Of a stretch of DNA of 64,000 bases, positions 4,212 to 47,361 are shown in pieces; the first letter of the stretch is position 1; every line of letters begins with the position of its first letter. The stretch comes from a virus. The position numbers were made by a program, and so were the translations under genes. The DNA lies in IMG/VR virus record IMGVR_UViG_3300046694_000136, positions 62,001 to 126,000 of that record; one strand, written 5' to 3'. A model generated the notes under the pieces. That model was not told the DNA's origin and did not search any database. It worked only from the letters and a program-made list of their open reading frames with translations.

Positions 4212-5681
4212 CTATTCGAATAGTTCTTTCGTGATCACACGAATCACCATGTACAGTGACAGAGCAGTCCGTGTGGTTAGGACCCATTGCGGGGTCTTAC
4301 GCCCAGTGATGTCAATTACGATCTTGTCACCCAACTCTCGGATGATTTTAACCTGGTCGTTGTTACTGCGAGAAGCCCCGTACGCACCACGCATCTTAAT
4401 CAATACGTCGTACACGTTACTCCGCTTAATACCATTGGCATGCAAGTATTCAAACATGTGCAAAACAATGGTTTCAGCAAACGTTTTGTAATCGGGGTAC
4501 TTCGGGTTGTTGTACCGCTTAGCAAACTCCTGGATCGAATACTGGAGCATCTCCATACGGACGTTATCCAACACACCCGCAGCGTACTCCATCAGTTCCT
4601 CTTTGAAGAACGAACTCTCTTCAGTAAGGATCCGGTCCAGATAAAGAACATGGGCGGTTACATCTTTCGCCACGCTCTTGATACTTAATTCGTCCTTCAG
4701 TTGAACTTTAGCGGACTCAACTTTTACGATGTTGGTTTTGTTCTTCACATCGTGGAAGACTTTGTTGATGTCGTTAATAGCCCGACGCAACCGGTTCTGG
4801 ATATCACCCACCATGTAGACAATCTTCTTGTCGTTGTCCATCTTGGACCACGCTTCGTAGTGAATTCCCGTCTTAGGGTTGATGATGTACTCAGCACGAG
4901 CCTCGATGAGGGCCTTCCAGCTACCGTAGCGCTTGATGTCGTACTTCAGGCTCAAGCGGTTATAGGTCTCGTATACGACTTCCTTACGAGCTTGGAACGG
5001 ATAGTCATTATGTACGATGCTGGTCAGGCACTTGTAGTGATACATGGAAACCACGTCCACCATAGCCCGGTGTTTCTCATCCGCTTTCAACGTACTCTTG
5101 TTGATACGGAACAAGAGGTAAGGGACGGTCATGTTGAACGCGTCGCCTACGACCGCCCACTCGCTCTTGATCGCGGCGCAAGCGTGCAGGTTTTCCCGCA
5201 GCTCATCTTCATCGCAGTCAAAGATCTCGTTGAACCACTCGTTACGGTCAGCCGTGGTGAAGGTGATCTTCTCCAGACCAAGGTAAGGTGCGCCGAAGAA
5301 CGCCATGTGGTCGTGCATCCCAACTTTACGAGTGATGAAGTTGTAGACGTACTTCTTAAGGGTAAGGGCCCACTTAGAGTTAACCTCCAAGTACTGACCC
5401 ATCTTTTCGAAGACTTGCAGGATGGCGTTGGTGCTTTCGAAGTTTACCCCTTGCAGGAGCGCTTCCATCCCTGCTACATCACTCAGTTCATACTGAGGAG
5501 GTGAAGGCTTGGCGAACTCGTGAGGGTGTCTGTCTTGAAAGAGACCGAGGTATTGATCAGGTACAAAGATCGAGGGTTGCTTGTTCCAGTACTCGTTCTC
5601 AGCTTCCTCAGCCGCTCGATCCGAACTGAGGTCTTCTGGGTTGTACTGAACCGGTACTCGGCTGAAATCTAATTCTGACAT
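4212..5681 (-). CDS. Uncharacterised 489-aa protein, probable virion or assembly component
   Basis: 489 aa. ATG at 5681 follows an excellent AAGGAGG site and is preferred over an upstream in-frame ATG at 5708. The protein is highly charged and largely helical, with Tyr-rich segments and no recognised catalytic motif. Its centre (about residues 290-340) is lysine/aspartate-rich and could form a coiled coil. It lies between the 282-aa gene (5692-6540) and the 235-aa gene with ~10-bp gaps. A structural role is suggested only by location next to the terminase. Confidence 0.6.
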   Translation of the reverse strand: MSELDFSRVPVQYNPEDLSSDRAAEEAENEYWNKQPSIFVPDQYLGLFQDRHPHEFAKPSPPQYELSDVAGMEALLQGVNFESTNAILQVFEKMGQYLEVNSKWALTLKKYVYNFITRKVGMHDHMAFFGAPYLGLEKITFTTADRNEWFNEIFDCDEDELRENLHACAAIKSEWAVVGDAFNMTVPYLLFRINKSTLKADEKHRAMVDVVSMYHYKCLTSIVHNDYPFQARKEVVYETYNRLSLKYDIKRYGSWKALIEARAEYIINPKTGIHYEAWSKMDNDKKIVYMVGDIQNRLRRAINDINKVFHDVKNKTNIVKVESAKVQLKDELSIKSVAKDVTAHVLYLDRILTEESSFFKEELMEYAAGVLDNVRMEMLQYSIQEFAKRYNNPKYPDYKTFAETIVLHMFEYLHANGIKRSNVYDVLIKMRGAYGASRSNNDQVKIIRELGDKIVIDITGRKTPQWVLTTRTALSLYMVIRVITKELFE

Positions 5682-5691
5682 GGGGTCCTCC

Positions 5692-6540
5692 TTATGTTCT
5701 GCGAGCAATGCCCATGCGTTGAGCGTCGTGTACGTTCTGCTTGTCGCTCCAAGTCATGCAAGGAGTCCAAACCTTCAGGAAGTATTCCTTGTAGTTAGTC
5801 CACGCATCCTTGTACTCAGCGATATCGTCTTTGATATCCGAGAGCGCAACACCCATCTTGACAGCGGCTTCGTTAACCGGGCTTTTCAGTTTACGGTACA
5901 AGTACGCTTTAACACCCAGCTCTACCAGCTCAGCGAACTGCAAGTAGTGGTGAGCGTGGATGCTGCTCATCGCTTCGTCGTATTCCATGATGACCTTGGC
6001 ACTCATGTTAAAAGTACCCATGTTGATACCGAAGATCACAAAGACGTTGTTACCCGTCATCTGGCAATCGGTATAGGTCTGCGGCATGGACTTGTTACCG
6101 GCCATGTTGTTAATCATGGAACCCATCATTTCGTTCACAACACCAGAACCACACTCAGCGTCGTTACCCACACCGATGCCCAGCTGACCGATAGCCGAGT
6201 TCATGGAACCGAGGTAGCACTCAGTCACCGAAACAATCTTGGCACCTCGAGTGGTCATCTCAGGAACCTTAACTTCTAGGCAGCCGTTACCGATACTGCG
6301 CATCTCTGAACCACCGAGGTCCAGGTACTCTGTCTTACCACCACCGACCTTACAGTCAGGCAGGATCAACTGGTGGATAATCTTTTCACGGATACCTTGT
6401 TCAATGGTGGTCTCGTTGACCATGTTGTACCAGTTACCGAGTACGTTGGCGTTCTTGTTAGCAAAAGCCAATTCAAAAAGGTACTCACTGATGTCGGAGT
6501 TCAAAACCCGACTGATAGCAAAATCTACTGGGTTACCCAT
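5692..6540 (-). CDS. Putative abundant structural protein (282 aa)
   Basis: 282 aa, ATG at 6540 with AAAGGA ten bases upstream. The centre is rich in Gly, Asn and Met (for example NEMMGSMINNMAGNKSM, about residues 136-152), and the C-terminal third is helical and aromatic. No enzymatic motif seen. It is the first gene of the five-gene minus-strand unit, with a long leader that carries a repeated CAATCAAAGGA and a short overlapping reading frame. Size and position next to the terminase are compatible with a tail tube or similar repeated virion protein, but the sequence alone does not show this. Confidence 0.55.
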   Translation of the reverse strand: MGNPVDFAISRVLNSDISEYLFELAFANKNANVLGNWYNMVNETTIEQGIREKIIHQLILPDCKVGGGKTEYLDLGGSEMRSIGNGCLEVKVPEMTTRGAKIVSVTECYLGSMNSAIGQLGIGVGNDAECGSGVVNEMMGSMINNMAGNKSMPQTYTDCQMTGNNVFVIFGINMGTFNMSAKVIMEYDEAMSSIHAHHYLQFAELVELGVKAYLYRKLKSPVNEAAVKMGVALSDIKDDIAEYKDAWTNYKEYFLKVWTPCMTWSDKQNVHDAQRMGIARRT

Positions 6541-7022
6541 AATCTAATGTCCTTTGATTGGTCAGGCTAAACATAACATTTCCTTTGATTGTTTTCTTAG
6601 GAGTATTTCATTGTATGTCTTACCTATACTTTTTGATTTTTGAAGAGTGGGGGTAAGAGTAAGACTTATGGAGTGGAGTAGCCCGAAGGGATACGGAACG
6701 GAATAAGGATTACTCTGGGGGAGTTGGTTGGGTTGGTTAGGTTCCGGATCATGCCCTACTGCCCTAAGGCCGCAGGCCTTTAAAGAAAAGTATTTTATTA
6801 CTGTAATTATTATAAAGCTAATTTAAACAATTTAAATAACTCTATTCCTGTTAAGGGAGTAGGGTAAGGGTCTACTATGCAAAAAGATAATAAACCTACA
6901 TTACTAGAGTGAATAAACACTTGATAATCTATTTTAAGCAATCAAGATGACTGGGTAAGGGGTTAGTTGGGATAAATCATCCTTAGTAACCCTTTGAGTC
7001 GATAACTGTAAGGAAGAAGAAA
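6541..7022. other. 480-bp divergent intergenic region, partly AT-rich
   Basis: Separates the minus-strand structural genes from the plus-strand early genes. Contents: a direct repeat TCCTTTGATTG (6550 and 6581); a small hairpin TAAGGCC-GCA-GGCCTTA (6765-6781); an AT-rich stretch (about 6782-6840); and the early-type promoter TACATTAC at 6897. No convincing gene is seen inside. The AT-rich stretch beside a hairpin could be a promoter cluster or a melting site; function unknown. Confidence 0.5.
6897..6904 (+). promoter_or_regulatory. Early-type promoter element (TACATTAC)
   Basis: TACATTAC in the context ACCTACATTACTAG, one base away from the phiKZ early consensus TATATTAC, and sharing the flanking CCT...TAG with the other copies in the window. 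It lies 126 bp before the first Ntn-hydrolase gene. Recognition by the virion RNA polymerase is inferred from phiKZ. Confidence 0.65.
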
Positions 7023-7703
7023 ATGACCATTGTTTGTTATGACGGTAAGAAGATGATCGCTGATAGTCTGGCTGCTACAGGGGATATGAAGCTCCCCGGA
7101 GCTTTTCAGAAGATCTATCATCCGCTGGATGATGAGTACTGGGAGATCAACAAAACAAAGGTTATTGCGTTTGGTTTTTCTGGTGCCTTGCCGGCGATTC
7201 CTTATATTCGGGAATTATTGAGTCAAGGGGTTACTTACCGGACGATCATTAAGCCGGATATCGACGTGGTCTTCGAAGCACTGTGCGTACTGGAAACGGG
7301 CGACGCGTACGTACTCAGCACTGAACCAACTCGGGCTAAAGGTCCAAGTGCTCACGAGTTCGTTATGGTTCCGGTACCAGTTCCGGTAGCGGTAGGTAGC
7401 GGTGGTGTGTTTGCCTACGCGGCTATGGGGCCTAAAGATAAGAACCAAGCCGAGAAGGGCGTAGAGGCGGCTAAACGGCTTTGTCCTTTCTGTGGCGGGG
7501 ATAACGTGGTCTGGGAGCTCCCACCTCCTCCAGAAGTCCCGAGCAAGCGTCCAGTATCGGTTCTGCCTGAGCTGGTAAACATTGAAGAGACCTATCCGAT
7601 CAATGGGCTCAACATGGGACAGCTTAAGCACGTGGTTAGTGGGATCGTATCTGATCTGATGAAGAAAGCTGATGAACCAGTGACGGAGGTGAAGAATGGA
7701 TAA
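7023..7703 (+). CDS. HslV/proteasome beta-like Ntn hydrolase, copy 1
   Basis: 226 aa. Begins MTIVCYDGKKMIADS. Removal of Met would expose an N-terminal Thr. Asp14 (IADS) and Lys30 (FQKI) match the spacing of HslV Asp17 and Lys33 within a few residues, and GSGG (125-128) matches the conserved glycine-serine loop of HslV and proteasome beta subunits. It therefore looks like a threonine peptidase or related Ntn hydrolase. Copy 1 is longest, with an extra C-terminal part carrying CPFCGG (154-159), possibly metal-binding, and a Pro-rich stretch. Ribosome site AAGGAAG. Followed by two paralogues (7943, 8473). Substrate and partner ATPase unknown. Confidence 0.75.
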   Translation: MTIVCYDGKKMIADSLAATGDMKLPGAFQKIYHPLDDEYWEINKTKVIAFGFSGALPAIPYIRELLSQGVTYRTIIKPDIDVVFEALCVLETGDAYVLSTEPTRAKGPSAHEFVMVPVPVPVAVGSGGVFAYAAMGPKDKNQAEKGVEAAKRLCPFCGGDNVVWELPPPPEVPSKRPVSVLPELVNIEETYPINGLNMGQLKHVVSGIVSDLMKKADEPVTEVKNG

Positions 7704-7941
7704 TCCGGAAACTATCACGATTACTTTGCCTAAAGGTAAGCTGGATTCCATTGAATCAATTACTACTCGGCCTATCGAGGGATATCCTGGGGTATCTGAA
7801 GTACTGATCAATGGGGAACCCGGTCGTCTGCTGGTCGACCTTTCTCAATTCGAAAACAATGAAAATGATCTGCGACGTCTGTACACCGGTGTCGGGGAAG
7901 GTTTTATCAAGCACCATGTGCGAAAAAATAACAGGAGCTAG
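7696..7941 (+). CDS. Small protein translated within the Ntn-hydrolase operon
   Basis: 81 aa, ATG at 7696 overlapping the end of the preceding gene by 8 bases, with GGAGGTG just upstream. No homology recognised. Begins MDNPETITITLPKGKLDS; predicted beta-rich first half and charged second half, no membrane segment. It sits between Ntn-hydrolase copies 1 and 2 and is one base from the start of copy 2, so it is probably co-expressed. It might be a regulator or partner of the hydrolases; that is speculation from position. Confidence 0.6.
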   Translation: MDNPETITITLPKGKLDSIESITTRPIEGYPGVSEVLINGEPGRLLVDLSQFENNENDLRRLYTGVGEGFIKHHVRKNNRS

Positions 7942-7942
7942 T

Positions 7943-8458
7943 ATGACTACTGTAGCTTGGGATGGTAAATTGTTGGTAGCTGACTCACAGTCCACTGTTA
8001 ACGGGCTGGCTACACTTAGTGTCTCTACAAAGATCTTCCTTCCCCCTGAAGGGGTTCTTACTAAATGGACGATCCAAGGAGAGTCGGTCGCGGCAATTGG
8101 TCTAGCGGGTTGTGCCATGGCACAATATACCTTTACGGACATGCTTGCGGAGGGGCTTACCCACCGTAGTCCAGTCCCTAAAGAATCCAGCTCCTTTGCC
8201 GCGTTGGTCATTACCCATACCGGTAAATGCTTCCGGTTTAACTATCGGAAGAAAGATGGCGAGGGTCCAAGCGTCCAATTGAGTTTTTCAAACGGCAAGG
8301 ACGCAATCGGTAGTGGGGGTAGTTTTGCCAATGCTGTGATGAGTATCAATATCGACGCTGGTTTGGCAGTACAGGCGGCTATCAATGTTGATCCTAGCAG
8401 CGGTGGTTCGCTTCAAATCTGGAACTCTGCTGAGCCAGGTGTTATTTCCATTCGTTGA
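7943..8458 (+). CDS. HslV/proteasome beta-like Ntn hydrolase, copy 2
   Basis: 171 aa. ATG at 7943 has AGGAG upstream. It starts MTTVAWDGKLLVADS, with candidate nucleophile Thr2, Asp14 and Lys30 (TKIF), and AIGSGGSFANAVM at about 121-133, the same framework as HslV. The size matches HslV (about 175 aa) better than copy 1 does. Paralogue of the neighbours at 7023 and 8473, all on one early transcript. Conservation of the three key positions in all copies argues against decay. Confidence 0.78.
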   Translation: MTTVAWDGKLLVADSQSTVNGLATLSVSTKIFLPPEGVLTKWTIQGESVAAIGLAGCAMAQYTFTDMLAEGLTHRSPVPKESSSFAALVITHTGKCFRFNYRKKDGEGPSVQLSFSNGKDAIGSGGSFANAVMSINIDAGLAVQAAINVDPSSGGSLQIWNSAEPGVISIR

Positions 8459-8472
8459 GGTTAAGGGTAATT

Positions 8473-9066
8473 ATGACAACAGTAGCGTGGGACGGTAATA
8501 CCTTAGCAGCAGATACTCTTTACGTGGCCGGTACTCGTAAGCTGGGAGGGGATTATGAAAAGATCCTGCTTCCGGAAGATACTCCATGGACAGTTAACGG
8601 TAAACCCATTCTGGCAGTTGGCTTCAGTGGGTCGATTGCGACTATCCCATGCATCAAGAAAGTTCTGGAAGCTGACGCAGTACCCGGGGTTGATCCAGCA
8701 TGTGGAGATTACAGCTTCACGATCTTGTTGGTAACCGATAAGAAAGAAGTTTACTACTGGAACTACGGCTCCACTGCTAAAGGCGAAGTGATTAACGAGC
8801 TCTTCGCTGTGGAAGGTAATCACGCTATTGGTAGCGGCGGGATTTACGGTCTAGGGGTCATGGCCATTAAAGGCGATGCAATCAACGCAGTGAAAGCCGG
8901 TATCAAAATCGATGTCAACAGCGGCGGTTACATTGACGTGTGGTCTTTCGAGACTCCTCGTCTGCTGACACGGATTAACCCCAAGGGCGGTGAAATCATC
9001 TCTGCCAAACAAAACACACCTGCTCCCGAAAAGAGCAAAGCTATCTTATGCGCCGTGAACGGCTGA
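8473..9066 (+). CDS. HslV/proteasome beta-like Ntn hydrolase, copy 3
   Basis: 197 aa, ATG at 8473 after TTAAGGG. Begins MTTVAWDGNTLAADT, with Thr2, Asp14, Lys30 (YEKI) and HAIGSGGIYGLGVM at 117-130. The core aligns with copies 1 and 2, and the C-terminus adds a short charged tail. Phages of several groups encode single proteins of this kind, but three adjacent copies are unusual. Followed by two hairpin terminators. Peptidase activity is inferred from the motif set, not shown. Confidence 0.78.
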   Translation: MTTVAWDGNTLAADTLYVAGTRKLGGDYEKILLPEDTPWTVNGKPILAVGFSGSIATIPCIKKVLEADAVPGVDPACGDYSFTILLVTDKKEVYYWNYGSTAKGEVINELFAVEGNHAIGSGGIYGLGVMAIKGDAINAVKAGIKIDVNSGGYIDVWSFETPRLLTRINPKGGEIISAKQNTPAPEKSKAILCAVNG

Positions 9067-9503: not shown

Positions 9504-10469
9504 ATGTCTGATTCTACCGATCTGAAAATCTGGGCTTGCGGTGGTACTGGTATCAACGTTTCGGCCGAAGCCAAAGCCAAGCCTCTGACTCAAGCAATCA
9601 AAGATGCACACGTGATCGGCCTGGACAGCTCTGACGCCAACGACAGCTCTGACCTGTTCGAAATCCACCGCATCGCAGGTCTGCAAGGCGCCGGCAAAGA
9701 CGCCAACAAAATCATGGACAAAGTCCGTCCGTTCGTGAAGGCTCTCGTTGCCAGCGAAAAACCTGGTAACCACAACATCGTCGTCGTGAACATCTCCGGT
9801 GGTACCGGTCGTGGTATGGCGTTCCAACTGGTGCGCGAACTGATCGAGAAAGAAGCGATCGTTATCCTGGCAATGATCTCGGACTTCACCTCGGTCACCG
9901 AGAAAGAAAACTCGGTCAAACAGCGCACTGCTCTGGTGAACATGATCAACCAGCTCGGCAAGCCGATCTGCTTCATGGAGTTCACCGAAGACGCTGACAA
10001 AACTCGCGGTGAAGTGAACGCGGAAGTTATCCAAGGCATTGCTCTGGCCTCGGTGTTCCTGAGCAAGTACAAGTCGGAAATGGAAGTCTCCGACCTGACC
10101 AACCTGTTCAACTACTCCTACGACAACAAGGTTCCGCCGGCGCTGAGTCGTATCCAGTTCTACGACGAAGTCACTTCCAAGGAATACAACGGCCCGACTC
10201 CTGTAGCGGTTGGTAGTTTGTTCATCGACAACGCTTCGGTTCGCCAAGTGTTCCCTGGAACGGTTTACCGTAGTACCGGTATTCTGAACAAGAAGAACAA
10301 CCCGCCTGGCGATCTGAAAGAACTGCACCTGACTCTCGACCACGGTGAAGCGTACGCTGCACTGCAAGAAGAGATCAAGGCGCTGGCCGACGACAAAGCC
10401 CAACTGGCTGCCCGCTTCGTGTCCCAGAAAGACATGAGTGCCGGTGCTGCTGATGACGGCTTCTGCTAA
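9504..10469 (+). CDS. phuZ: Phage tubulin/FtsZ-like GTPase (PhuZ)
   Basis: 321 aa. In phiKZ-like phages PhuZ forms the bipolar spindle that centres the phage nucleus and moves capsids. Evidence: an N-terminal GGTG (13-16) in the first nucleotide-binding loop; ISGGTGRG (97-104), the tubulin signature with one Gly replaced by Ser; helix-strand alternation typical of the GTPase domain; and the expected length (PhuZ is about 315 aa). The C-terminus is short and weakly acidic (GAADDGFC) compared with the strongly acidic tail of 201phi2-1 PhuZ. Codons are strongly Pseudomonas-preferred, implying high expression. Own early promoter at 9427, perfect palindrome terminator at 10487. Confidence 0.82.
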   Translation: MSDSTDLKIWACGGTGINVSAEAKAKPLTQAIKDAHVIGLDSSDANDSSDLFEIHRIAGLQGAGKDANKIMDKVRPFVKALVASEKPGNHNIVVVNISGGTGRGMAFQLVRELIEKEAIVILAMISDFTSVTEKENSVKQRTALVNMINQLGKPICFMEFTEDADKTRGEVNAEVIQGIALASVFLSKYKSEMEVSDLTNLFNYSYDNKVPPALSRIQFYDEVTSKEYNGPTPVAVGSLFIDNASVRQVFPGTVYRSTGILNKKNNPPGDLKELHLTLDHGEAYAALQEEIKALADDKAQLAARFVSQKDMSAGAADDGFC

Positions 10470-17807: not shown

Positions 17808-17900
17808 TAGTACGAATCGAAGATATAAATGTGTGTAGGCATACACTGTGCGATTCTGCTAACAGTCACCCTTTCTTAAGAAAAGATGGAGTTATACCTT

Positions 17901-19886
17901 ATGGCCGTTCAACAAAACCGCAAAGGCGCGGGCAGCAATTCCTGGGATGGTAAAAATGGCAACGCCGCAGAGTTCTCCGCTCTGTCGGAACTCTTCCATA
18001 CCCCTTCCATGTCGTCCGACAACCGCCAGTTGCCGGAAGTTGATGAGGTGATCGAGATCCTCAAGAAGGGCTACACTGCGATGAGTGAATCCACCATCCA
18101 GCCTGCCCAACGCGCAATCATCCCGACTGTCGACAAAGTGTCGCCTGTCATCAGCTCCACCCTGCCGGGTCTGGTAATGCACCGCCTGGTCGGCCAGAGC
18201 GTCTGGGTCATGCTGGTACTGTTCTCCAACAAGGACAACGCCATCGCGACCGAAACCGTTCAAGTGCTTCAGCCTATGGGCATGCCGCACAAGACCTCGG
18301 TCCTGCTGACCCCGACCAACTACTTCACCCACGAGCTGGTCGACAACCTGAAGAAGCACTTCAAGGGCGTCCTGGAAAACGAAGGCCTGAAAGGCGAAGT
18401 CGAGATCATCAACCTGATGACCGAAGACTTGGAAATGCTGCAACACTCCCAGGCCGGTGAGCCGAAAGAGCGTCCACAGCGCATCGCCAACTACCTGAAA
18501 GGCGAGTGGGAAACCGCGGTGTTCTGCAAACTGTCCTCGGAGTATCCGAAGCACAAGCAGACTCTGCCTTCGCCGTTCAAAGATCCTGATGCACCGTACG
18601 GCAAAGACGGCTGGGCCGAAGCACGCGTTACCGCAATCGACGGCAAGGTCTCCCGCGCCGGCACGCTGATGCCGTCCAACATGGAACTGGTGATTTCGAC
18701 CACCAACAACCCGAACAGCAGCAACAACAACCAGAACAACCCGAACTCGAAAGGGATCGTGCGCGCTCTGGCTACTGTTCAGTTGTCGGCCATCAGTTAC
18801 CAAATGCACATGCAGAACATCGCGGCCATCTCGCAGGCCGGCGGTCAAGCCGATGCTATCCAGGCGTTCCTGGGCATCAACGGCGGCATGTACATGAACG
18901 GCTACCGTCCGCTGCACCCGGTCATCACTCTCGACCACGCCAACGCGGAAGAGATGATGAACTACAACAACGGCCTGTTCCCGCACTACTACGCGCTGTT
19001 CGCGCTGATGTGCACCAACACCGACTACATCTTCACTGAACCACTGCGTCGCGCCAACGTCGGCTCCCGGGGCAACCTGAGCTCCTTCGAACCGCGCATC
19101 GAACAGCTGGTTGCTCAGGCGTTCACCGGTGTTCGTCCAGTAATGGACGACAAGACCATCCTGGACACCGAAGCAGTCAACAAGTGGATCCACCAGAACA
19201 TCTCGCCGAACGCTCTGTTCCGCAGCAACGTGATCCTGGGCGGCCTGTCGTCCCCGGTGAACAAGCACCTGGAAGTTCTGTCGGATCCGGTCCTGGCCAA
19301 CCGTCAGTCGGCGGTACAAACCATGATCGCGGTAATGGACGCAATCTCCAAAGGTCGTTTCTCGCAGATCGTTGCGGAAAACGTCAAGTCTGGCAAAGGC
19401 TGGAAGCCAGGCGATGTTGCGCTGCACCGCACGAAGATGATCGCGGTGAACGGTCTCGCGAAGAACCCACAAGGTCGCGAGCTGAACACCCTGGAAGTCG
19501 ACGAAATGTACCTCGGTACTCACAAAGGTAAGGCTGGGCTGCAACAGTCCATGAACTACCTGAGCGTGCTGTACGGCACCAACAACGAAGAAGTTCGTTC
19601 GCGTTGCCAGAAGCTGCGTATCGAAATGACCACCGGTCTGTTCGATGGTCACGTGCACATCAACAACTTCGGTTACTCCTGCGTCTGGGATCCGCATCTG
19701 ATGGCTGTTATCGGTGCCGCTCTGTCGGAAATCGGTACGCTGAACGTTGCGAACACCTACAGCTCGATGCGTCCGAACAACATGGCGTTCATGCCAATGG
19801 CTGGTCTGCAAACCGTTACGTCGGTCGGCAACAGCAACAACATGAACCTCCTGGGTGGTTTCGGTAACGGCGGGATCTGGGGCTAA
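17901..19886 (+). CDS. chmA: Chimallin-like major nuclear shell protein
   Basis: 661 aa from the ATG at 17901, which has GGAG nine bases before it; an in-frame ATG at 17886 lacks a ribosome site. ChmA (phiKZ gp54, 201phi2-1 gp105, about 600-630 aa) forms the square lattice enclosing phage DNA. Support: position directly before the RNAP beta' N-terminal gene, as gp54-gp55 in phiKZ; matching length; early promoter; very strong codon bias fitting an abundant protein; and flexible polar N- and C-terminal segments. A low-complexity Asn/Ser insert lies at about 274-284 (NNPNSSNNNQNNPNS). Ends GFGNGGIWG, nearly the same as the 29462-30976 product. Identification rests on context and general features; no structural comparison was possible. 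Confidence 0.75.
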   Translation: MAVQQNRKGAGSNSWDGKNGNAAEFSALSELFHTPSMSSDNRQLPEVDEVIEILKKGYTAMSESTIQPAQRAIIPTVDKVSPVISSTLPGLVMHRLVGQSVWVMLVLFSNKDNAIATETVQVLQPMGMPHKTSVLLTPTNYFTHELVDNLKKHFKGVLENEGLKGEVEIINLMTEDLEMLQHSQAGEPKERPQRIANYLKGEWETAVFCKLSSEYPKHKQTLPSPFKDPDAPYGKDGWAEARVTAIDGKVSRAGTLMPSNMELVISTTNNPNSSNNNQNNPNSKGIVRALATVQLSAISYQMHMQNIAAISQAGGQADAIQAFLGINGGMYMNGYRPLHPVITLDHANAEEMMNYNNGLFPHYYALFALMCTNTDYIFTEPLRRANVGSRGNLSSFEPRIEQLVAQAFTGVRPVMDDKTILDTEAVNKWIHQNISPNALFRSNVILGGLSSPVNKHLEVLSDPVLANRQSAVQTMIAVMDAISKGRFSQIVAENVKSGKGWKPGDVALHRTKMIAVNGLAKNPQGRELNTLEVDEMYLGTHKGKAGLQQSMNYLSVLYGTNNEEVRSRCQKLRIEMTTGLFDGHVHINNFGYSCVWDPHLMAVIGAALSEIGTLNVANTYSSMRPNNMAFMPMAGLQTVTSVGNSNNMNLLGGFGNGGIWG

Positions 19887-45296: not shown

Positions 45297-46307
45297 ATGA
45301 GTCAGGAAAACGCAATGCAAGACGATATCGTTATCGACGAGAACGAAGAGTTCGTCGCACCTGAATCCAGCCACATCGAGCTGGTCTTCCAAGCCCTCGG
45401 TGACACTGTCAATGCCGTTGCTGGTACCGAAGGTCTGACCACCGCTCAACTGTACTTCCACGGCGTTCTGAACGCGTCTGGCCAGCTGAGCTACACCGAC
45501 TCGGTCTCCGGTGCTGAAGGCTTCTTCGCCAACGTGAAAGAAGGTGCTTCCAAAGCCATCGCTTACATCAAGAAGATGGTCAAGGAAATCTGGGGCTTCT
45601 TCTTCAAGAAGCAAGGTCCGGAAGAAGCCAAGGCTGTTAAGGAAGCTGTTGCTGGTACCGCTGCCGACCTCGCCAACGTCGAGAAAGTCAAATCCGGCCT
45701 GAAGAGCGCCGCTGGTTCCGACTCGAAAGAGCTGGTTGAACACATCAGTAAGGCGAGCACCATCGCTGAACTGAACACCGTGTCGAAAGACGTGGCGAAG
45801 AAGAACACCAAGGCTCAGCAAGGTCTGGTCGTCAAGATCAACCAACTGGTTGAATCGCTGGAAGCCGAAGTCAAGCTGGCTGAAGAAGTCGAAACCGAAG
45901 CCAAGAAGTCCGGCGAAGCAGGTTACACCGCTTGGGCATCGGGCGTGAAAGGCGGCGTGTCGGGTACTCAGTCCCTGATCACCACCCTGAAAGGTATTCG
46001 CGATCTGGCTGACCTGAAGGCTGCTGAAGACACCCTCGGTGCACTGAAGTCTCACGTCGAGATCATCAGCCGCGCTCTGGAAGCCTCCGGCGGTACCGAA
46101 TCCCGCGTTCAGGGCATGATCGACACCCTGTCCACCCTGGATGGCAACAACTCCGCCAGCGACGAACAGAAGAAGCAAGGCGACGACAACCTGAAAGCTC
46201 TCCAGCTTTTCGTTAAGTCGGCTGCTCGCTACTCTGCTCTCCTGAAGCGCACCCTTTCCCATATGAAATCTGTCAACACTGCCACCGGCAAAGTGTTCGG
46301 CGTTTAA
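45297..46307 (+). CDS. Inner-head/ejected virion protein, paralogue A, predicted propeptide
   Basis: 336 aa, AAGGA before ATG. Acidic N-terminal region, AVAGTE (40-45), then SGAE-GFF (71-77). After this comes an amphipathic helix KAIAYIKKMVKEIWGFFFKK (about 87-106) and a long Ala/Lys/Glu helical body. The phiKZ prohead protease cleaves after S/A/G-x-E, so cleavage after Glu45 or Glu74 is predicted. Paralogue of the next gene. Resembles the phiKZ gp93-gp95 type of inner-body proteins in arrangement. Very strong codon bias implies many copies per virion. Confidence 0.65.
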   Translation: MSQENAMQDDIVIDENEEFVAPESSHIELVFQALGDTVNAVAGTEGLTTAQLYFHGVLNASGQLSYTDSVSGAEGFFANVKEGASKAIAYIKKMVKEIWGFFFKKQGPEEAKAVKEAVAGTAADLANVEKVKSGLKSAAGSDSKELVEHISKASTIAELNTVSKDVAKKNTKAQQGLVVKINQLVESLEAEVKLAEEVETEAKKSGEAGYTAWASGVKGGVSGTQSLITTLKGIRDLADLKAAEDTLGALKSHVEIISRALEASGGTESRVQGMIDTLSTLDGNNSASDEQKKQGDDNLKALQLFVKSAARYSALLKRTLSHMKSVNTATGKVFGV

Positions 46308-46317
46308 GGAGTCCTCG

Positions 46318-47361
46318 ATGGACGAAGTAATGAGCGAAGACGAACTGAGCATGGAAGTGGCTATCCCTGCTCCGGAACACATCGAAACCATCCTCGACGG
46401 CGTCAGCGACTCCCTCGACCAGGTGGCGGGTACCGAAAGCTTGACCAACGCACAGGTTTACCTGGGTTCGGTTCTGGCTGCCAACGGTTACATCCGCAAG
46501 AACCAGGTTGGTCAGGAAGGCTTCTTGGCGAAAGCCGGTGAAGGTTTCAAAGCCGCTGTTGCCTACGTCAAGAAGATGTTCACCAACCTCTGGGACTTCT
46601 TCTTCAAGCGTGACGCACCGAAGCTGGTAGCTGAGGCCAAGGAAGAGGTCAAGGCTGCTGAAGACGCCCTCAAGGTCATCGAGTCCGGCGGTAGCAACGA
46701 GAAAGAAACCACTGAAGCGCTGACCAACATGCGCAAAGTGATTCTGGCTCTGAGCCACGAACCTGACACCAACAAGTCTGCTCTGGATCAGATCCTGAAA
46801 GAAGCGGACGAAGCGATGAAGGGCGATCAAGCCAAGAAGAAAGCTGCCGTTCTCATGATCGGTCGTGAACTTCCGAAGCTGAACAAGCGCTCGACTACCG
46901 CCATGAAGAAACGTGTCGACGACATGGTTCGTGTCCTGGTTGCGACCGAGAAGGCTGTCGACGCTGTTATCGACAAAGGCGAAGGTGTCAACGCTGCTTC
47001 GATCGAAAGGGTCTACGGCGCCAAGCTGAAGTCTGAGAAAGGTGAAATCGCTGGTGTCCTTGCCAAGTTCCAAAAGGCCAGTAGCGAAACCACTCCGGCT
47101 AACCTGAAGGACTGCTACACGTACACCTCGCAATCCATTGAAGCGGCAAGCCGTGCGCACACATCGCTGAAAGAGGGCGAGACCTCCATCAAGGCTGAAA
47201 TCGCCAAGCTGGAAGCCGGTGAGGAGTCTACTCTCAAGAGTAGTGTTCAAGACCTCAAACGTCTGCTGAGTTCGGTTACCTCTTTGGCCCAAGTGACCAA
47301 GGAACTGCTGGGCTCCAGCCGTCAGTTGCTGAAAACCGGTAACAAGGCTTTCGGCTACTAA
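46318..47361 (+). CDS. Inner-head/ejected virion protein, paralogue B
   Basis: 347 aa, AAGGAG before ATG. QVAGTE (35-40) and VGQE-GFL (64-70), then KAAVAYVKKMFTNLWDFFFK (about 77-96), matching paralogue A residue by residue in spacing. The rest is helical and Lys/Glu/Ala-rich. The N-terminal ~40 residues are acidic, like a scaffold-type propeptide. Predicted to be processed by the head protease and packed in the capsid. Convergent with the DNA polymerase exonuclease gene across a perfect terminator. Confidence 0.65.
   Translation: MDEVMSEDELSMEVAIPAPEHIETILDGVSDSLDQVAGTESLTNAQVYLGSVLAANGYIRKNQVGQEGFLAKAGEGFKAAVAYVKKMFTNLWDFFFKRDAPKLVAEAKEEVKAAEDALKVIESGGSNEKETTEALTNMRKVILALSHEPDTNKSALDQILKEADEAMKGDQAKKKAAVLMIGRELPKLNKRSTTAMKKRVDDMVRVLVATEKAVDAVIDKGEGVNAASIERVYGAKLKSEKGEIAGVLAKFQKASSETTPANLKDCYTYTSQSIEAASRAHTSLKEGETSIKAEIAKLEAGEESTLKSSVQDLKRLLSSVTSLAQVTKELLGSSRQLLKTGNKAFGY

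Follow-up and report, generated by a model that had tools for sequence, protein, structure and literature searches.

Three tandem genes upstream of phuZ in a virus contig encode paralogous Ntn hydrolases of a phage family, PPH, two of them with a canonical active site and one with a modified site. Our best explanation, to which we give about an even chance, is that the three proteins are made together as specialised subunits of one hetero-oligomeric protease encoded by the phage, with two canonical members and a modified one. The window, i.e., the whole stretch of 64,000 nucleotides that was analysed, comprises bases 62001 to 126000 of the 234,503-base contig. Its ORF at 17886 to 19886 is a nuclear shell protein (chimallin) gene (phrog_4795, E = 1.8e-101), and the virus is therefore a phage of the nucleus-forming kind. 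The three paralogous ORFs fill exactly positions 7023 to 9066 and are the only PPH-type genes in the whole 234-kb contig. The features of the locus are as follows:

6892 to 6904, plus strand: promoter-like phage motif AAACCTACATTAC, 119 to 131 bases before copy 1 (window scans)
7023 to 7703, plus strand: copy 1, PPH-family Ntn hydrolase, 226 aa (phrog_1040, E = 2.4e-20)
7482 to 7499, plus strand: CPFCGG of copy 1, residues 154 to 159 (EL gp15 and family alignments)
7696 to 7941, plus strand: small ORF, 81 aa, between copies 1 and 2 (homologue in a 229-kb relative)
7943 to 8458, plus strand: copy 2, PPH-family Ntn hydrolase, 171 aa, start ATG at 7943 (phrog_1040, E = 1.8e-23)
8473 to 9066, plus strand: copy 3, PPH-family Ntn hydrolase, 197 aa, start ATG at 8473 (phrog_1040, E = 1.8e-19; site table; tree)
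9504 to 10469, plus strand: PhuZ (phage tubulin), 84% identical in the 229-kb relative and 43 to 44% identical to EL PhuZ

Relative to copy 2, identity is 37% for copy 3 and 31% for copy 1, and a Shine-Dalgarno-like sequence precedes each of the three starts. All three proteins begin with MT(T/I), with no peptide upstream and no propeptide. Copy 3 carries a C-terminal extension of 39 aa, whose last residues are KAILCAVNG (GAILCAPGG in the orthologue). In the 229-kb relative, contig IMGVR_UViG_3300013713_000001, all three copies recur, together with phuZ and a homologue of the small ORF, and the gene order is unchanged. The small ORF, which is absent from the preliminary description of this DNA, shares 8 bases with the 3' end of copy 1 and had no family match in the family-model searches; its homologue in the 229-kb relative lies at the corresponding position (37% identity, E = 2e-19).

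The three copies group with PPH (phage proteasome homolog), a phage family already described (Fuchs et al. 2021), and not with HslV or 20S beta subunits proper, an assignment that was made via PHROG 1040 and that does not separate PPH from RPC (PPH-like with a C-terminal extension) for copies 1 and 3. Each of them matches PHROG 1040 (“peptidase HslV family”) at the E values listed above. There was no match for the three copies to Pfam PF00227 over the cut-off or to the curated NCBIfam HslV models at E values up to 1, and single-sequence PDB searches with copies 2 and 3 did not find HslV. A profile of 27 phage relatives reached BPH, HslV, and proteasome beta chains in the PDB (E = 8e-9 to 1e-5), and a 79-sequence profile recovered the same groups. 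AlphaFold2 models of copies 1 and 2, each as a single chain, had pLDDT values of 92.7 and 95.7. In Foldseek searches, both models matched HslV, BPH, and 20S beta chains with a probability of 1.0 and TM-scores of about 0.4 to 0.6 (copy 1 versus HslV, E = 1.1e-6; copy 2 versus 20S beta chains, E = 2.4e-7; probability 1.0 in both cases). In the copy 2 model, a single helix (60 to 69) lies between strands 47 to 56 and 85 to 91, and helix H2 is missing; a compact subunit without this helix (as seen in copy 2) and without a propeptide is characteristic of PPH. Thus, the initial reading of the locus as three tandem proteasome/HslV-like Ntn hydrolases holds, with all copies matching phrog_1040 and a predicted fold of the proteasome beta/HslV/BPH type, and a fold unrelated to Ntn hydrolases, which had been named as one of the points that might overturn it, was not what AlphaFold2 and Foldseek returned.

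Thr2, Asp14, Lys30, the oxyanion Gly, and GSGG are present in all three copies; the site table confirms what had been said of the first three residues and of GSGG. In proteasome numbering, all three copies have Thr1, Asp17, Lys33, Gly47, and Ser129, and the combination of Thr1/Asp17/Lys33 and the oxyanion Gly in a proteasome-like Ntn fold is that of PPH. Asp166 and Ser169 are found in copies 2 (DPSSGG) and 3 (DVNSGG) only, so that the 20S-type motif Asp166-x-x-Ser169-Gly170 is present in these two and absent from copy 1, which has Cys at both positions and keeps the rest of the site. The claim that the whole active-site set is retained in every copy must therefore be restricted to copies 2 and 3.

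Another reading to be corrected is that of the CPFCGG motif of copy 1, first described as an extra tail. It aligns with Asp166-x-x-Ser169-Gly-Gly, both via EL gp15 (CPFCGGDNVVWELPPPPEVPSKRP versus DIFSGGRIDTWELPPIPETPSKRP) and in the family alignments, and the segment that directly follows it, VVWELPPPPEVPSKRP, aligns without gaps to DTWELPPIPETPSKRP of EL gp15, which there stands after DIFSGG. CPFCGG is therefore an altered second-shell active-site motif, and the true extension of copy 1 starts beyond it, with a predicted helix at residues 198 to 217 (AlphaFold2); the H3-H4 linker is slightly longer. The copy 1 orthologue in the 229-kb contig reads SPYCGG for CPFCGG and GCGS for GSGG. Because of this SPYCGG, CPFCGG is not a conserved metal or zinc site; a Lar-like zinc finger was also considered and rejected, as the lone match was far below the cut-off (E = 0.15) and there is no second Cys pair. 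The copy 1 frame is intact, and the protein is 57% identical in the 229-kb relative. In yeast beta5, D166N costs about 60% of activity and T1S 40 to 45% (PMC4792962), so such changes impair but do not necessarily abolish activity. Likewise, HslV itself has Cys at position 166 (ICIYTN) in the profile alignment, and copy 1 may therefore be active. Judged by its residues, copy 1 should be termed modified, not dead.

The array is not private to this virus. Phage EL has one PPH gene (gp15) at the same place upstream of phuZ, and PPH and PhuZ profile scans revealed two tandem copies in about nine further uncultivated phage lineages and in Shewanella phage FishSpeaker, where the two copies are separated by −4 to 16 bases (71 in FishSpeaker); the copy numbers were borne out by whole-record searches. 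PhuZ is the constant downstream neighbour of the PPH genes and was present in all nine records searched for it. A chimallin-like protein was found in 16 of the 19 records searched and in 13 of the 14 records with tandem copies. RisingSun has PhuZ and a chimallin-like protein and gave no PPH match. In the named phage collection, PPH is nearly always single (342 places in 339 records; 191 places in 182 records), and in phage Gungnir39 the gene sits among head genes. A scan of genome contigs with alignment A1 yielded 19 bacterial loci. One contig (G006, that of L070) has a third PPH copy at 6731 to 7240, at a great distance from both phuZ and the tandem pair. The Salmonella jumbo phage pSal-SNUABM-04 is reported to carry two HslV genes that lie far apart (PMC7823757). 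PPH itself is known; in the literature searched, we found no report of tandem PPH genes in nucleus-forming phages, or of such arrays beside phuZ in which site residues were lost repeatedly and unequally between the copies.

Phylogeny places the origin of the copies well back. In the maximum-likelihood tree, each of the three copies forms a pair with its counterpart from the 229-kb contig (100/100, 100/100, and 100/99 for copies 1, 2, and 3), and the second copy of contig L069 falls together with copy 3 (99/91). A clade of only the six proteins from the window and the 229-kb contig was rejected (p-AU = 0.024). Thus, the copies are older than this lineage, and the tree and the AU test rule out a lineage-specific triplication.

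Among 117 distinct homologues, Asp17 is conserved in 116 and Lys33 in 115; at position 1, 109 have Thr and 8 have Ser, whereas 101 carry Asp at position 166 and 110 carry either Ser or Thr at position 169. Ser1, in all eight cases, and every Cys at position 166 or 169 are confined to tandem arrays. According to the site table, the modified (B) copies of two-copy phages have Ser1, a changed GSGG, and Cys or Asn at 166. In FishSpeaker, whose tandem genes lie at 4774 to 5298 and 5370 to 5978 of locus L139 (the second alone is annotated as HslV family), Ser129 and Asp166 are gone from both copies; judging from these residues, an array may lack a canonical partner. The pairs in L060, L063, and L069/L070 consist of two canonical copies. 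Modified copies mostly exceed their canonical partners in the length of the C-terminal extension, and the longest tail of all is on a canonical copy (L069).

A single origin of all modified copies was tried and rejected (p-AU = 0.0055), and so was one origin of copy 1 and the B copies (p-AU = 0.0085, or 0.0024 with the active-site columns masked); the groups were picked after the alignment had been seen, and the p-values are somewhat optimistic. As read from these trees and alignments, Asp166 was lost from one copy, often together with a Thr1-to-Ser change, at least three times independently: in copy 1, in the B copies, and in FishSpeaker. dN/dS is 0.09 to 0.22 for the modified B copies, like the 0.06 to 0.19 of the canonical A copies, with some dS values being high; the modified B copies are therefore kept by selection, and their decay as pseudogenes is ruled out. 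This result concerns the B copies of two-copy phages, since the dS of the PPH genes has reached saturation between the window and its 229-kb relative.

The sequences upstream of the array bear on its expression. The motif AAACCTACATTAC is one base off the core (AAACCTACATTAT) of the predicted EL promoter, tabulated as WTTTYAAACCTACATTATY, with TATATTAC for phiKZ (PMC7058600), and TACATTACTAG likewise stands ahead of copy 1 in the 229-kb relative. Window scans found no phage promoter-like motif ahead of copies 2 and 3, and the search of the coding strand for a sigma-70 promoter before copy 1 was likewise negative. The phiKZ motif TATATTAC starts 77 bases before phuZ and 86 bases before the chimallin gene. 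This pattern is compatible with one phage-transcribed unit and says nothing about timing. Of the “early operon” proposed in the preliminary description, the single gene cluster stands, whereas AAACCTACATTAC is compatible with early expression but does not show it.

Some further features of the window were observed. Exact copies of TATATTAC occur three times (9427, 17800, and 26380), all on the plus strand, with 0.75 expected by chance; they precede phuZ, the chimallin gene, and ORF 26412. The gene for the terminase large subunit (1093 aa) occupies positions 1 to 307 and starts 1189 bases before the window (L179, 812 to 4093). Its Walker A motif (PRQQGK...TVSV) is apparently split by an intein-like insert ending in HLYVTDDFMVTHN, for which the TIGR01443 model gave no match at E values up to 1. 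By eye, the adjacent ORFs 45297 to 46307 and 46318 to 47361 look like paralogues (AGTEGLT/AGTESLT region) and are perhaps head proteins.

How might three such proteins work together? As we infer assembly, activity, partner, substrate, and early timing, the subunits would be made together, without a propeptide, from the one gene cluster upstream of phuZ, and removal of Met1 alone would expose Thr1 in each copy. Copies 2 and 3, with the triad (Thr1, Asp17, and Lys33; oxyanion Gly47) and the proton shuttle (Ser129, Asp166, and Ser169), are probably active, and for copy 1 a weakly active, structural, or regulatory role is probable. The working form would most likely be a mixed ring or double ring; in known homologues, H3 and H4 make the main ring-to-ring contacts and the C termini face outwards (PMC8665760). 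Such a ring may cleave host or phage proteins, either ATP-free or with a host unfoldase, because no AAA+ unfoldase was recognised in the contig: searches of the 234 kb, which may be incomplete, gave no match to AAA_2/AAA unfoldases (HslU/ClpX-type partners). This is in line with the newly described homologues, published as lacking a co-occurring AAA+ partner. The phage-made protease suggested at first is thus plausible, and of the two options offered with it, three active enzymes or a hetero-oligomer, the latter fits the copy-specific divergence best. A simple “one active, one structural” rule is challenged most strongly by FishSpeaker, both of whose copies are modified.

Several other explanations have to be weighed. 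The three genes may encode separate homo-oligomeric PPH enzymes with different substrates, a product of ordinary duplication and divergence without mixed particles. The paralogues are indeed old and only about 30 to 37% identical, the single-copy PPH of EL and hundreds of phages implies that one subunit type is enough, and three lineages have both copies canonical; however, the repeated loss of shuttle residues under purifying selection is easier to understand beside an active partner, and we regard this explanation as rather unlikely. Quite improbable, in our judgement, is that the modified copies (copy 1 and the B copies) are decoys or inhibitors that bind host HslU, HslV, or a defence protein and need no catalysis. 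The missing AAA_2/AAA match in the contig, the Ser1, altered GSGG, and Cys/Asn166 of the B copies, and the presence of modified copies only in FishSpeaker would suit such a role, but the modified copies keep Thr1 or Ser1, Asp17, and Lys33, which are superfluous for a pure decoy, and there was no match to the HslV family models.

A further alternative is that PPH proteins are non-degradative, i.e., specific processing enzymes or peptide ligases like connectase of the same superfamily, a proteasome homologue that acts as a monomeric ligase (PMC8665760). PPH proteins are small and lack helix H2 (PMC8665760; copy 2 model), and the location of the Gungnir39 gene among head genes would agree with specific processing. 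The models of copies 1 and 2, however, are devoid of the connectase-like helical insertion between the early strands, and this possibility appears improbable.

The hetero-oligomeric protease has a wider form: independent evolution may have given nucleus-forming jumbo phages a hetero-oligomeric proteasome of their own, made of catalytic and catalytically impaired subunits, repeating the specialisation of the eukaryotic 20S particle. We advance this tentatively, as somewhat short of an even chance. If mixed particles exist, they would be an independent viral instance of 20S proteasome-type specialisation and a candidate route by which nucleus-forming phages remodel the host proteome. The phuZ-side locus with one, two, or three paralogues offers natural comparisons for mixed assembly and for the number of active subunits needed, and two isolates, EL and FishSpeaker (which infects Shewanella oneidensis MR-1), are open to testing.

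The closest known system is PPH (PHROG 1040), with which the array shares a phage-borne gene, an MTT(V/I)A start without a propeptide, a compact Ntn fold without helix H2, and a site composed of Asp17, Lys33, Gly47, GSG, and Asp-x-x-(Ser/Thr)-Gly-Gly. The window differs in having three tandem paralogues instead of the usual one, in their length (171 to 226 versus about 140 aa), and in the Cys residues at 166 and 169 and the helical C-terminal extension of copy 1. EL gp15 likewise lies upstream of phuZ and shows 37% identity to copy 1, with WELPP.PE.PSKRP following the motif in both, whereas it is a single copy with an intact DIFSGG and a short tail. HslV (ClpQ) is similar in fold, Thr1/Asp17/Lys33, GSGG, and length; unlike in HslV, there is no match to its family models, no AAA+ unfoldase such as an HslU partner alongside was found in the 234-kb contig (use of host HslU is possible), and H2 is missing in the model. 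Moreover, HslV has CIYTN where copies 2 and 3 have Asp-x-x-Ser-Gly-Gly. The 20S beta subunits differ in that the phage-encoded copies show no PF00227 match, no propeptide, and no accompanying alpha subunit, but they share the fold and both residue sets, and active and inactive paralogues likewise occur side by side in eukaryotic beta rings.
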